This document shows, piece after piece, positions 30,631 to 36,066 of a stretch of DNA of 64,000 nt; position 1 is the first letter of the stretch; the number at the start of each line of letters is the position of its first letter. Source of the stretch: Fibrobacter sp. UWR4. Its GTDB lineage: Bacteria; Fibrobacterota; Fibrobacteria; Fibrobacterales; Fibrobacteraceae. A program made the position numbers and the translations under genes. Where the stretch lies: NCBI RefSeq assembly GCF_003149045.1, contig NZ_QGDU01000006.1, positions 1 through 64,000 on the forward strand. Reading direction: 5' to 3'. The notes beneath the pieces were generated by a model. It made no database searches, was not told where the DNA came from, and saw only the letters and a list, made by a program, of their open reading frames with translations.

Positions 30631-32334
30631 TTAGAACAGGGCGCCGTGGATTTTCACATCATCAATGGAAATTTCACTGCCGGCGGCAAAGAAGAAATGA
30701 AGCTGGCGGACCTGCGTCTTGACGCCATCCCATGCCTCGTCACAGGCCCATTTTTCGGAGCTATTCACGCACAGGTTAGAGGGTTTCACCACCATTCTGG
30801 TCCACACGCTATCCACCTTCATCCATTCGGAAGCGGCCTTGGCATTCTTGGAGTAGGACTCCCAATTTTCCAGGGCGACACGAACATTGCCATTCCCCTT
30901 CGCAAAGAACTCGATGGAGTCAATAGCGGTAAAGTTCTTTAGTTCTTCCAGCTTGCTGCCCAGAAGAGCCCAAGCATACGGATCCTTGGCTAGTTCATAT
31001 TTTGTGCTGAACACCTTGGATTCGCGGCTTTCATCTGCCATCAGATGATCAGCCAACAAATGCTTCGCATCCACCTTTCCATTAACGAACTTGAAGGTAG
31101 AACCCTTGTACAAGGTATCCACATCCATATACCACAGCGGGCTATTCTCTTCAAAGTCAAACAGAAGCCTTGACGGATTCAAGCAAGCCGCCCCTTCCTT
31201 AGGTGACTTCACGGACCATTCTACAAACGGCTCGCTGCTATCGGCATGAACGAAATACAGGTCCAGAGTTTCACCCGCAGGAACAGCAGGTAGCACATAG
31301 GCTCCCAGGGAATTCGTCTTCACCAGGATGTCAAATCCGTAAGCGCCCACCCAGGCATAGGTTTCTTCACTATTCAAGGTCACCTTGCTTGCGACAGAAG
31401 AGGAAACGCTCAGTTTTAGAGTGTCGATTACAGACAAACTATCTGCATCGTAGATCTTGGAGAAGGAATTGTTACCAGCAAGGACAGTCAGTCGATAGCG
31501 TCCGGAGCTAGGCCATTCCATGGTAAACTTACCTTCGGCATCTGTACGCAAGTCGGCCTTTACCAGGCTGTTCTGCAACACGAACTTTTCGGCCTTGTAA
31601 TCACTCTCGCGGAGAGCCACCGCAGCATAGGCAGCAACAGAACCATCTTCCTGAAGGACGACCACCTTCTTCACCGTATCCACAGGAGTTTCTACAGTAT
31701 CCTTATCTTCCGGCTTGGTCGTATCGGCAGGAATTTCCGGCATCTCCTTGTAGTTCTCATAAACGAATTCCGTGGGAGAGAAGAACGCAGACTTGGATTC
31801 CAGAACGTCTTCCAGAGATTCATTTACGAAATACAGCTGGAGAGAGTCGTTCGCCGGCAGGGCAGGAATGACAAACACGCCATTCTCGTCTGCGGGAACG
31901 ATAATGTCTGTTCCATAGACGCCGACCCACACGGTCTCGGATCCCTTAGGAACGTCCAGTTCACCCTGCATTACAGCAGTAGGAACCAGGTCCACAGATT
32001 CAAGAGTTTCCTTGCTGGATGCATCCACCACCTTAGTGAAGGCATGACCGTTATAGGAGATTGTCAAACGGAAAGAGCCGTCTTTGGGAATCTTCAGCTT
32101 AAAGTCACCCTGGTCATCGGTATAGGTATCTGCAACGACCACGTCGTTTTCAGCCTGAGTTGCGAGAGCCATGTGATCAAGCGCGCGAAGGGATACACTT
32201 GCAAAAGGAGCAGGCGCACCATCCACATTTGCACGACCATTCGTCGTAATGCTACCAGGTCCACCGGCAACATTCGTCTCGGAACAACCAATAAAGGCCG
32301 ACGCGAGAGTCAAAAGGAAAAGTAATCTTTTCAT
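30631..32334 (-). CDS. Lipoprotein with two carboxypeptidase-regulatory-like units
   Basis: A 567-aa predicted lipoprotein (lipobox FIGC, Cys17). Two homologous blocks of ~170 residues are visible, each with a regulatory-like beta-sandwich segment (GDFKLKIPKDGSFRLTI / GKFTMEWPSSGRYRLTV) followed by a WVGVYGTDI / WVGAYGFDI segment. After ~400 comes a different domain ending in a jelly-roll-like pattern (FFAKGNGNVRVALENW, QLHFFFAAGSEISIDDVKI) that resembles CBM11/CBM-type sandwiches. A surface or polysaccharide-binding role is inferred. Its ATG overlaps the TIGR02147 stop by 4 bp (ATGA), so the regulator and lipoprotein are a coupled pair. Confidence 0.78.
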   Translation of the reverse strand: MKRLLFLLTLASAFIGCSETNVAGGPGSITTNGRANVDGAPAPFASVSLRALDHMALATQAENDVVVADTYTDDQGDFKLKIPKDGSFRLTISYNGHAFTKVVDASSKETLESVDLVPTAVMQGELDVPKGSETVWVGVYGTDIIVPADENGVFVIPALPANDSLQLYFVNESLEDVLESKSAFFSPTEFVYENYKEMPEIPADTTKPEDKDTVETPVDTVKKVVVLQEDGSVAAYAAVALRESDYKAEKFVLQNSLVKADLRTDAEGKFTMEWPSSGRYRLTVLAGNNSFSKIYDADSLSVIDTLKLSVSSSVASKVTLNSEETYAWVGAYGFDILVKTNSLGAYVLPAVPAGETLDLYFVHADSSEPFVEWSVKSPKEGAACLNPSRLLFDFEENSPLWYMDVDTLYKGSTFKFVNGKVDAKHLLADHLMADESRESKVFSTKYELAKDPYAWALLGSKLEELKNFTAIDSIEFFAKGNGNVRVALENWESYSKNAKAASEWMKVDSVWTRMVVKPSNLCVNSSEKWACDEAWDGVKTQVRQLHFFFAAGSEISIDDVKIHGALF

Positions 32335-33167
32335 TTTTTCTTCTCCTGCAAAGGCTTTACAAAGGCCAACGGGAACAATTGAATATTGAGTTGGAACACT
32401 GTGTTATCTCCAGAACCATCCTGGGATAAACGTAGTAAATCGGAACGGAATTCGTTAATCTTTTCACGGATTAACTGGATATCATCCATATTAAAAGTCA
32501 TGGTCACCGTGCTAATATCACGGAGATGAGGGGCATGACGCTCCAGGGACTCACCAGCCAGGGCAATAGTATCCTTCTGGAACTGACGGACGGCGGCAGA
32601 GCGCCAGTTTCCGCCGGTACTTACGAAAGTGTCATTCACTTTCCAGTAGCCGTCCCTGTCTTCAGAAATCATGTTCAGTTCATGCAAGAGCTGAACAGCG
32701 GCGCGAGCCTCTTCCACCGTAATCTGGGGAGTGCAGCATTCCGCCAGGCCTTCGTAGTCATCCTTGAACTTGCAGATGCCGATAACGGAACGAATCGCGT
32801 TGTAGTACCAATGGCGATAGAATTCCAGCTCCTTCTTCGCCAACAGCTTAAGGGATACACCCTTCAGGGCCTGCATGCGTTCGTAATGCTGCAAGGCTTC
32901 CGCATCCGTCTTTGCACGACCGAAATAAACCATTTCAGTCCAGTAGGCGGCTTCCTTTTCATCCAGTTCAAAAAATTCAGCAGCAGGCTGAATAAGGCCA
33001 GTCGACAAATGAATCTTACCCTGAGACACGCGAAGCAGGTTGCCGGGGTCGGCACCCATCTTCATAGCCATATAACGCCAGGAGATTACAGTCTTGCGCT
33101 GTTTAAAATCATCAAAAGCGTCTCTCAGCCATTCGCGGTAGTCAGTATATTCAAATATCGGTTTCAT
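32331..33167 (-). CDS. TIGR02147 family regulator
   Basis: A 278-aa protein of TIGR02147 (DUF4423-related), a paralogous family first defined in Fibrobacter succinogenes. The hallmark start IFEYTDYREWLRDAF is followed by a helix-turn-helix-like stretch (ISWRYMAMKMGADPGNLLRV) and a helical body. A DNA-binding regulatory role is widely assumed, but targets are unknown; the overlapping lipoprotein gene is the natural candidate. ATG at 33167 is chosen over TTG 33173: TATCTT sits 7 nt upstream, indicating a leaderless message. Confidence 0.88.
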   Translation of the reverse strand: MKPIFEYTDYREWLRDAFDDFKQRKTVISWRYMAMKMGADPGNLLRVSQGKIHLSTGLIQPAAEFFELDEKEAAYWTEMVYFGRAKTDAEALQHYERMQALKGVSLKLLAKKELEFYRHWYYNAIRSVIGICKFKDDYEGLAECCTPQITVEEARAAVQLLHELNMISEDRDGYWKVNDTFVSTGGNWRSAAVRQFQKDTIALAGESLERHAPHLRDISTVTMTFNMDDIQLIREKINEFRSDLLRLSQDGSGDNTVFQLNIQLFPLAFVKPLQEKKK

Positions 33168-33180
33168 AAACAAAAAGATA
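33168..33180 (-). promoter_or_regulatory. -10-like TATCTT, leaderless start of the TIGR02147 gene
   Basis: TATCTT at 33180-33175 (minus), 7 nt before the ATG at 33167; the gap is T-rich with no ribosome site. Confidence 0.5.
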
Positions 33181-33213: not shown

Positions 33214-33600
33214 TTATTCTCCGTTGTGGAACTTTACAACGATATTCAACTGAGAATCGCAGGTGGCGGACCACTTACATTCCGGATTCTTTTGGAGGCT
33301 TTCATCCTCGCAAATCCCTTTAAATTCAAGGATTTCAGCCGTTTCTGCAGATTTCCCATAGACAACCCGATACTCCAGTTCTTCTACAGGGGAAGCCTGC
33401 ACCGCCGGTTCGCCCATAAGCCGACCTGTGAGTCTTATCACACAGGCGTCCTTGTTAGGCAGTTCATCCTCGTTTTGTCCGGGAACAACAAACCAGTGGA
33501 GCTGCAAGGGACGGAACTCCACCGGCTGAACCTTTTTGGCGCATCCCGCCAAAAGGCAAATAAATGTCAGAAAAAGAAATGGATAGAGGACCTTTCTCAT
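33214..33600 (-). CDS. Small hypothetical lipoprotein
   Basis: A 128-aa predicted lipoprotein (signal helix, lipobox LAGC, Cys20). The mature part is beta-rich with four cysteines late in the sequence (C96, C104, C109 region), possibly disulfide-linked in the periplasm. I recognise no family. Its ATG overlaps the stop of the GGDEF gene by 4 bp (ATGA), so the two proteins are made together; a role in sensing with that cyclase is inference. Confidence 0.7.
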   Translation of the reverse strand: MRKVLYPFLFLTFICLLAGCAKKVQPVEFRPLQLHWFVVPGQNEDELPNKDACVIRLTGRLMGEPAVQASPVEELEYRVVYGKSAETAEILEFKGICEDESLQKNPECKWSATCDSQLNIVVKFHNGE

Positions 33601-34931
33601 TTCAACGGATTGCGCTTGAATGTAGCGCTAGTGACACGGTTCCTACCGCCTTCCTTAGAAGCGTAGAGAGCCTTGTCAGCGCGTTCAAACAGACGCTTCG
33701 GGTCTTCGCCCGCGATCATTTCGGCAATACCGAAGGAGCAGGTTACCTGCTGCTGCTTGATCAGCGGAGTACTTTCAATAGCCATTCTCAACTTTTCTGC
33801 CAAGAACTGTGCATTCTGGATGGGGGTATCACCACACAGAATCACGAATTCTTCGCCACCCCAGCGAACCAGGGCATCCGTATTACGAATCTTGCTCTGG
33901 ATAAGCTTGGTCAGGTTCACCAGCACTTCATCACCCACATTGTGGCCATAAGCGTCGTTGATCTTCTTGAAGTGGTCGATGTCCAAAATCACGAAGGAGA
34001 CAGGGCTGTCATTCTTGCTCAGGTTTTCCTGTTCGCGGAGAAGCACGCTGCTGAAGCCAGCTCGGTTAAGGCAGCCCGTCAGCGGGTCTTCCTTGCTGGA
34101 CTTTTCATATTCGGACTTTTCAATTTCCAGAGCCAGCAAGTTCTTTTCCAGTTCTTCACGCTTCTTCTTGTTTGCAGCACGTTCACGGCTATAGTCAAAG
34201 AAGCGGATCACAAGGATAATCAAGAAGGTCACAAACCACATGACCACCAGAGAGGTCACCAGGTTGTCCCAGGAAATGGTTTTACCCTTAAAGCGTACGC
34301 CCTTGATTTCCAAGGTACCATAACCATAAGCGGCATTCGTTCCCGTCTGGATTTCAATCAGGGGGACATTGCTCAGGTCGACACGGGCCTGATGGACGTT
34401 AATATTGTTCTGGGCGACCCACCAGCCTGCCAGACGGAATTCCTGGGGGACAAAGATCGCAGGATAGGATTCTTCCAGGGGGAAGAATTCAATTTCGTTA
34501 TACTTCCAGCTGCCTTCGTCACCCGCACGGGAGAACGAGCTATCGAAGCCACGAAGGTACAGACGGACGGAGCCTTCACCGCGGGGCTTGACCCACACGA
34601 AAATACTGTCGTACTTGGAAAGGTCCCAACCACGGGACTTGCCATCGCCCAGATAGATTTTCACACTGGCATACGGATATGCATATCCTTCACGCAGTTC
34701 ATAGTCCAAGACCACAGAGGAGTCGGTCTTATTCAGCACGACTACAGAGGAACCGCCATCAGCGGAGTCACCCACCACCTTCACATAGGGGTAGTCGGAC
34801 AACATGATGTCCCTACTTTCGTTCAGGCCGTGCTTATAGGCCAAGAGTGCGATGACCGTAATGGCCAACAGCGCGAAAATAAGGATGTTCATCCTAAACA
34901 GTACGTAAAGTTTTTCAATAACCCTAGACAT
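33597..34931 (-). CDS. Membrane diguanylate cyclase with carbohydrate-binding-like sensor
   Basis: A 444-aa predicted diguanylate cyclase. A membrane helix (~14-32) and a second one (~225-247) bracket a ~190-residue periplasmic domain; its WDLSKYDSIFVWVKPRGEG, VRLYLRGFD and WWVAQNNINVHQARVDLSNV pattern is reminiscent of CBM11/CIA30-like jelly rolls. A coiled coil (REELEKNLLALEIEKSEYEK) leads to a complete GGDEF domain: DPLTGCLNRAGF, VILDIDHFKKINDAYGHNVGD and active site GGEEF. No RxxD inhibitory site was checked in detail. AGGA lies 5 nt before the ATG, and a TATATT (34973-34968) lies further upstream, a leadered message. Coupled to a small lipoprotein gene. Confidence 0.88.
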   Translation of the reverse strand: MSRVIEKLYVLFRMNILIFALLAITVIALLAYKHGLNESRDIMLSDYPYVKVVGDSADGGSSVVVLNKTDSSVVLDYELREGYAYPYASVKIYLGDGKSRGWDLSKYDSIFVWVKPRGEGSVRLYLRGFDSSFSRAGDEGSWKYNEIEFFPLEESYPAIFVPQEFRLAGWWVAQNNINVHQARVDLSNVPLIEIQTGTNAAYGYGTLEIKGVRFKGKTISWDNLVTSLVVMWFVTFLIILVIRFFDYSRERAANKKKREELEKNLLALEIEKSEYEKSSKEDPLTGCLNRAGFSSVLLREQENLSKNDSPVSFVILDIDHFKKINDAYGHNVGDEVLVNLTKLIQSKIRNTDALVRWGGEEFVILCGDTPIQNAQFLAEKLRMAIESTPLIKQQQVTCSFGIAEMIAGEDPKRLFERADKALYASKEGGRNRVTSATFKRNPLK

Positions 34932-34986: not shown

Positions 34987-36066
34987 CTAACGGCTCATCC
35001 ACTTGCCCAGACGACCTACAATGGGGCGTATAGTATTGGCCAGGTCCACCTGGGAACGTTCCGTAGGATGTCCATGGAGCCCCTCATTGGTAGTATGCAC
35101 CTCCAAGAACTCCAAATCCTGGTGTCCTTGGGCAATTTCGGCATCATAAACGGACTTTACAGTAGGAGTCAAATCGTCATTTGGCCAAATTTTGGTAGAA
35201 ACAAGCAAGAATTTCACACCCGGATGCTTAGAACGCAAGTCATTTATCATTTTTGCATAGGCTTTTTTGAATTCTTGCTTATCTCCGTAGGGAGGATTCC
35301 CCTGAAAATCGTTAATTCCAACGAACATCACCACCACCTGCGGATGGAAACTGTCAAAATTCCAGAGAAGGGAGGACTCATCAGACGTTTTAGTCACATC
35401 CCCCGGAGCAAAACCGGGGGCCGTATAGTTATACAGGCGCGGAATTTTCCATTCCGGCACAATATTGTCGTAATTTCTCACAAGGCCACGGCCGCTAAAG
35501 GCGTTAATCTGGAAATCAGCCTTGAATCCATCCGCCAGCAGGAAGGCGTAACTTTTGGAAGAGTTGGTTGTTTCGAACACATGATCTTCCTGGTCGGCCA
35601 CATTTCCCTCACAGCCATACCCTACAGTAAAGGAGTCCCCAATGAACTCAATTCGACGATTGGTGAACTTGGGCGCATCCATCAGCTTGCCCTTCTTATC
35701 CGTAGAAATGCCATGGAGAATGACTCCCCCCGGATTACTTTCGCTAATCTTGATCAGACGATAAAGATGGGTTTTGCCATCCCCAGCCACCTTTACATGT
35801 TCCACGGACTTGCCGTCAGTTACAAAAATTGCGAGCTGTTTACCATCCTGATCCACTCGCCAACGAGCGTGTCCTTCCAATTCAAAATCCAAAGAACTGG
35901 CCACAGCATTGAACTGGACCATTGCCGCAGGGGCAGATGTACGACTAAAGGAAGATGTGTGGTCCCAACGACCACTGAAAAGGAAGTGGCTAGAATCCAA
36001 ACCCATGGAAGCCTCCGCGCACACTGCGCCCAGTGCCATTACGGCGAAAAATCTCAAAAAACCCAT
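34987..36066 (-). CDS. CE2-type acetyl esterase (SGNH fold)
   Basis: A 359-aa secreted esterase expected to remove acetyl groups from xylan or other hemicelluloses. A signal peptide is followed by an N-terminal beta-sandwich (~22-120, with FSGRWDH and WRVDQDGKQLAIFV), as in carbohydrate esterase family 2, then the SGNH core: nucleophile block RIEFIGDSFTVGYG near residue 144, block III GINDF, and the catalytic His in LHGHPT near the end. The ATG at 36066 has TAGATT 6 nt upstream and no ribosome site. Transcribed alone and divergent from the cytochrome gene. Confidence 0.9.
   Translation of the reverse strand: MGFLRFFAVMALGAVCAEASMGLDSSHFLFSGRWDHTSSFSRTSAPAAMVQFNAVASSLDFELEGHARWRVDQDGKQLAIFVTDGKSVEHVKVAGDGKTHLYRLIKISESNPGGVILHGISTDKKGKLMDAPKFTNRRIEFIGDSFTVGYGCEGNVADQEDHVFETTNSSKSYAFLLADGFKADFQINAFSGRGLVRNYDNIVPEWKIPRLYNYTAPGFAPGDVTKTSDESSLLWNFDSFHPQVVVMFVGINDFQGNPPYGDKQEFKKAYAKMINDLRSKHPGVKFLLVSTKIWPNDDLTPTVKSVYDAEIAQGHQDLEFLEVHTTNEGLHGHPTERSQVDLANTIRPIVGRLGKWMSR

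Follow-up and report, generated by a model that had tools for sequence, protein, structure and literature searches.

Which periplasmic signal does a membrane-bound cyclase of Fibrobacter sp. UWR4 convert into c-di-GMP? The question is raised by a gene at positions 33597 to 34931 (minus strand, as for all features below) of the window, the whole stretch of 64,000 nucleotides that was analyzed here. The gene encodes 444 amino acids from an ATG start, and the open reading frame, strand, PF00990 match, and catalytic motifs agreed with the original prediction of a GGEEF diguanylate cyclase. We examined its architecture, its gene neighborhood, the fold of its sensor domain, and the distribution of this domain in Fibrobacterota.

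The cyclase and its conserved neighbors

The predicted layout of the cyclase comprises a first transmembrane helix (residues about 5 to 36; positions 34824 to 34919), a periplasmic domain with a CBM11/CIA30-like jelly roll (residues 39 to 221; 34269 to 34817), a second transmembrane helix (residues 222 to 248; 34188 to 34268), and a GGDEF catalytic domain with an intact I-site (residues 281 to 432; 33636 to 34091; PF00990, E = 1.8e-42). Both helices were assigned by hydropathy, and the basic residues that precede the first hydrophobic segment and follow the second place residues about 40 to 221 in the periplasm. The charged linker that follows the second helix is probably a coiled coil, and no HAMP segment was found in the cyclase with Pfam. 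The inhibitory RxxD site (RNTD, residues 349 to 352) lies five residues upstream of the active-site GGEEF; the motif RNTDALVRWGGEEF, which contains both (residues 349 to 362; 33846 to 33887), was kept in 32 of the 32 GGDEF-fused homologues aligned. Given the GGDEF domain and these intact motifs, the protein is predicted to synthesize c-di-GMP from GTP. The genome contains 34 GGDEF domains, 7 EAL domains, and 1 PilZ domain, thereby indicating that c-di-GMP signaling is real in this organism but divided among many enzymes.

At the threshold used, 88 of 101 Fibrobacteraceae genomes had one orthologue of the cyclase each, which shows that the gene is not a chance open reading frame. Within this search, genus g5 had no orthologue. 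Among 30 orthologues, the mean identity was 0.71 for the sensor domain and 0.79 for the catalytic domain, and 52 sensor residues were invariant. Separately, one Fibrobacter genome carries the cyclase gene broken into two open reading frames (locus L092:5238-6576), owing to a frameshift or an assembly error.

The genes on both sides of the cyclase are also conserved. A CE2-type acetyl esterase/deacetylase gene (34987 to 36066), the CE2 neighbor named in the original prediction, lies on the same strand, 55 nucleotides upstream, and its order relative to the cyclase holds in nearly all genera examined. The encoded protein has a signal peptide, a CE2 N-terminal domain (CE2_N, PF17996, E = 2.7e-7), and a GDSL catalytic domain (PF13472, E = 1.1e-11). 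No type IX tail was evident on this protein; together with the signal peptide, this suggests that the CE2 enzyme may share the compartment of the sensor. On the other side, a small lipoprotein gene (33214 to 33600) begins within the stop codon region of the cyclase gene, and the TCAT on the plus strand at 33597 to 33600 bears out the ATGA overlap that had been described. The exact overlap occurs in this genome and a few others; in the remaining genomes, a few nucleotides usually separate the two genes. The lipobox LAGC is followed by AKK, which under the +2 rule suggests a lipoprotein of the outer-membrane type. Its structural model showed an alpha/beta fold (pLDDT 89.5) with no confident PDB match, the best being ToxR/ToxS at a Z score of 5.8, within noise; no Pfam family was found for it, and no OmpA match in it or its 44 relatives.

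The lipoprotein gene adjoins the cyclase gene in 50 of 61 loci and is absent there in the other 11, in which the cyclase is intact. The close linkage of the two genes is thus supported. The lipoprotein may be a partner of the cyclase, but these 11 loci make its proposed role as a co-sensor doubtful and indicate that such a role is not obligate. In several of the loci missing the lipoprotein gene (L062:7337-9703 and similar), the next gene after the cyclase lies on the other strand and encodes 788 amino acids that, judged by sequence, look like a membrane pyrophosphatase. In YfiBNR, the cyclase is under the control of periplasmic and outer-membrane partners. Cyclases of the YfiN/DgcN type share with the present one the order of transmembrane helix, periplasmic domain, and transmembrane helix before the GGDEF domain, as well as a gene for an outer-membrane-type lipoprotein alongside. 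However, the lipoprotein here, with no Pfam match, is not an OmpA-like YfiB, the sensor fold is unlike the PAS/Cache folds of periplasmic-sensor cyclases, and YfiR was not found with Pfam in the neighboring genes scanned, the CE2 gene being in its place.

The order CE2, cyclase, and lipoprotein, often followed by a TIGR02147 regulator, a CarboxypepD_reg protein, and then ispA-dxs, was found across Fibrobacteraceae genera. In the window, these ancillary members are a TIGR02147-family regulator gene (32331 to 33173; NCBIfam match and synteny) and a CarboxypepD_reg-repeat protein gene (30631 to 32334; Pfam and synteny), which overlap by 4 nucleotides. Iterated searches suggested a sensor-like region in the C-terminal part of the latter protein, but a clean profile did not match it; the similarity is weak, and this region is possibly a remote CBM11/CIA30-like domain. 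Scans for sigma-70 promoters and terminators were uninformative.

Fold and putative ligand site of the sensor domain

No Pfam or NCBIfam model covers residues 39 to 221. The sensor matched neither CBM_11 nor CIA30 (PF08547) of Pfam up to an E value of 1, and PDB sequence searches found nothing, whether the query was the single sensor sequence or its profile; the fold emerged from the structure model alone. An AlphaFold2 model built on an alignment with 58 relatives was all-beta with a pLDDT of 92.5. The first five Foldseek matches were CIA30/NDUFAF1 and CtCBM11 (E = 4e-8 and 9e-7). In VIA-align, the predicted sensor aligned with CIA30/NDUFAF1 (7zkq and 7zkp), the closest solved fold, at a Z score of 17.5 (rmsd 3.2, 166 residues), and with CtCBM11 of Clostridium thermocellum Lic26A-Cel5E (1v0a and 6r31) at Z scores of 16.3 to 16.5 over about 160 residues (for 1v0a, 16.5, rmsd 2.7, 159 residues). 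Among the remaining listed matches, sugar-binding modules and CBM-bearing enzymes scored no higher than 12.7, the value for CBM30, which is the next isolated module. In hhalign, the sensor profile matched a CBM11 alignment with a probability of 87.6%; the CBM11 domains in this alignment come mostly from Fibrobacterota enzymes of the CBM30-CBM30-CBM11 type, and the CtCBM11 sequence was verified. These results uphold, at the level of the fold, the CBM11/CIA30-type jelly roll that had been proposed from sequence. On the predicted model, the domain is a relative of CBM11 and CIA30 by fold and not a member of CBM11.

Trp170-Trp171 is encoded at 34419 to 34424, and Trp171, invariant in 58 of 58 sensor domains, paired in hhalign with Tyr129 of CtCBM11, a ligand-stacking residue. 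In the same alignment, Pro190 and Thr196 of the sensor stand opposite Asp146 and Tyr152, presumably ligand-contact residues of CtCBM11, so that conservation does not extend to the entire CBM11 site. In another CBM11, docking singled out Tyr122 (PMC12603373), probably the same site as Tyr129 of CtCBM11. CtCBM11 is part of a secreted enzyme, shares 12 to 13% identity with the sensor, and differs from it in most of the key contact residues. CIA30/NDUFAF1 is a mitochondrial complex I assembly factor, unlike the sensor of a membrane cyclase. The domain did not match a known non-carbohydrate sensor, yet this best match is an assembly factor and no sugar binder, so the fold is no proof of sugar binding.

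The sensor family and the genes beside it

Next, we examined the distribution of the sensor domain. A profile search found it in 137 of 168 Fibrobacterota genomes. Among about 224 genomes sampled outside the phylum, no clear sensor was found, and 3 gave weak partial matches in apparently secreted proteins. By these searches, the domain is a previously undescribed sensor family specific to Fibrobacterota, and it is fused to three outputs: GGDEF, an AraC-type HTH_18 domain, and a hybrid histidine kinase. Weaker profile matches were secreted proteins carrying CIA30, CBM30/CBM11, or a GH8 catalytic domain, and two secreted Fibrobacter proteins related to the sensor are matched by PF08547. A GH8 protein from another family of the phylum (locus L194:976-3216) has a sensor-like domain at about residues 489 to 571. 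In the source genome, a tandem pair of sensor-domain genes (245 and 237 amino acids) precedes an AI-2E-type permease gene (locus L096:4388-5780). In other genera (L121, L128, and L130), the second gene is fused to AraC HTH_18, so its DNA-binding domain has apparently been lost in this genome.

The neighbors of sensor genes were surveyed at 52 loci, most of which belong to other families of the phylum. In at least 16 of the 52, an immediate neighbor encodes a GH2, GH5, GH9, GH16, GH18, or CBM4/9 protein, and most of the loci have no recognized glycoside hydrolase as an immediate neighbor. Of 55 sensors, 7 had a GH9 or GH16 gene within 1.5 kb, against about 0.5 expected from the genome-wide GH9 and GH16 counts; because the seven represent about three lineages, the nominal P value of 1e-6 is overstated. 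Genes 2 to 4 places from the sensors were tried as a background control and proved not to be clean, with 4 of 20 encoding glycoside hydrolases or lyases that belong to the same clusters. The association is thus with enzyme clusters and not solely with the adjacent gene. In the source genome, two sensor paralogues are flanked by genes of housekeeping type, and no glycoside hydrolase gene was evident in their vicinity.

Altogether, the fold, the aligned aromatic residue, and the glycoside hydrolase genes beside other family members make a carbohydrate ligand likely.

What the cyclase may read

The reading that we favor, as probable though well short of certain, is that the periplasmic sensor reads beta-glucan or hemicellulose oligosaccharides into c-di-GMP, as one member of a Fibrobacterota-specific family. 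The original prediction coupled polysaccharide contact to c-di-GMP; this part is unlikely, since an inner-membrane protein with its sensor domain in the periplasm cannot touch insoluble fiber, and we replace contact by periplasmic breakdown products. Oligosaccharides released in soluble form from plant beta-glucan or hemicellulose would reach the periplasm, where the CE2 enzyme would perhaps deacetylate them, and would bind the sensor at a putative site including the invariant Trp171. Binding would rearrange both transmembrane helices and the linker of a dimer, so that the two GGEEF domains meet and produce c-di-GMP, with feedback on the cyclase through the RxxD site. The c-di-GMP would then tune surface attachment or enzyme deployment to digestible fiber.

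In Fibrobacter succinogenes S85, c-di-GMP is about 2.5-fold higher in cellulose-grown than in glucose-grown cells, and two GGDEF proteins are raised on cellulose (PMC6851124). From this rise, activation of the cyclase by its ligand is the simpler guess. The effect may come from GGDEF proteins other than this cyclase, given the 34 GGDEF domains in the genome; the literature gave no link between the cyclase orthologue and FSU_0222 (A7UG35) of F. succinogenes, for which a 1.49-fold rise on cellulose is reported. The conditions to which Fibrobacter cyclases respond are stated as not known (PMC6851124), and in a partial literature collection no paper was found naming both CIA30 and GGDEF.

The closest functional parallel is offered by the RsgI anti-sigma factors of C. 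thermocellum, membrane proteins with carbohydrate-binding modules as outside sensors of plant polysaccharides (PMC4711584). Both are membrane signaling proteins, with a CBM sensor in RsgI and a CBM11/CIA30-like fold in the cyclase. In contrast, RsgI belongs to a Gram-positive bacterium, carries CBM3, PA14, CBM42, or GH10 sensors at the cell surface, and acts by sigma factor release, whereas the cyclase, from another phylum, has a periplasmic CBM11/CIA30-like sensor and c-di-GMP as output.

Three other explanations were weighed. It is rather unlikely that the sensor fold serves for protein interaction, as in CIA30/NDUFAF1, and that it binds a partner in the periplasm (the lipoprotein or some envelope protein, for instance) and reports the state of the envelope instead of sugars. 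That CIA30/NDUFAF1 is the best fold match and that the lipoprotein gene, in 50 of 61 loci, lies next to that of the cyclase would fit such a role, as would the precedent of YfiBNR, generally known for control of a cyclase by such partners; however, 11 loci have an intact cyclase with no lipoprotein gene beside it, and elsewhere in the sensor family, glycoside hydrolase genes are frequent neighbors. We consider it improbable to a further degree that the ligand is some other small soluble compound and not a plant oligosaccharide, e.g., a cell wall fragment or a monosaccharide. The likeness to the CBM11/CIA30 and CBM30 modules of secreted enzymes and the GH9, GH16, and GH5 genes near sensors in several lineages argue against it, although the periplasmic position of the domain and the two paralogues among housekeeping-type genes are in its favor. 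Finally, a vestigial or purely structural sensor with a constitutively active cyclase is very improbable, because the sensor is nearly as conserved as the catalytic domain, with its 52 invariant residues, and recurs with three different outputs.

With the reading of plant oligosaccharides as the preferred one, we propose more tentatively, leaning slightly to doubt, that the family with the invariant Trp is a common fiber sensor of Fibrobacterota, serving c-di-GMP, membrane-tethered AraC regulators, and phosphorelays, and that it explains how substrates are detected. The cellulose degraders of this phylum are not known to have cellulosomes or Sus systems. To the questions of how Fibrobacter senses insoluble plant fiber and why its c-di-GMP rises on cellulose, the locus brings a core, nearly Fibrobacteraceae-wide cyclase whose periplasmic domain plausibly reads sugars and whose partner gene is conserved, together with a sensor family that is now defined and has testable candidate ligands.
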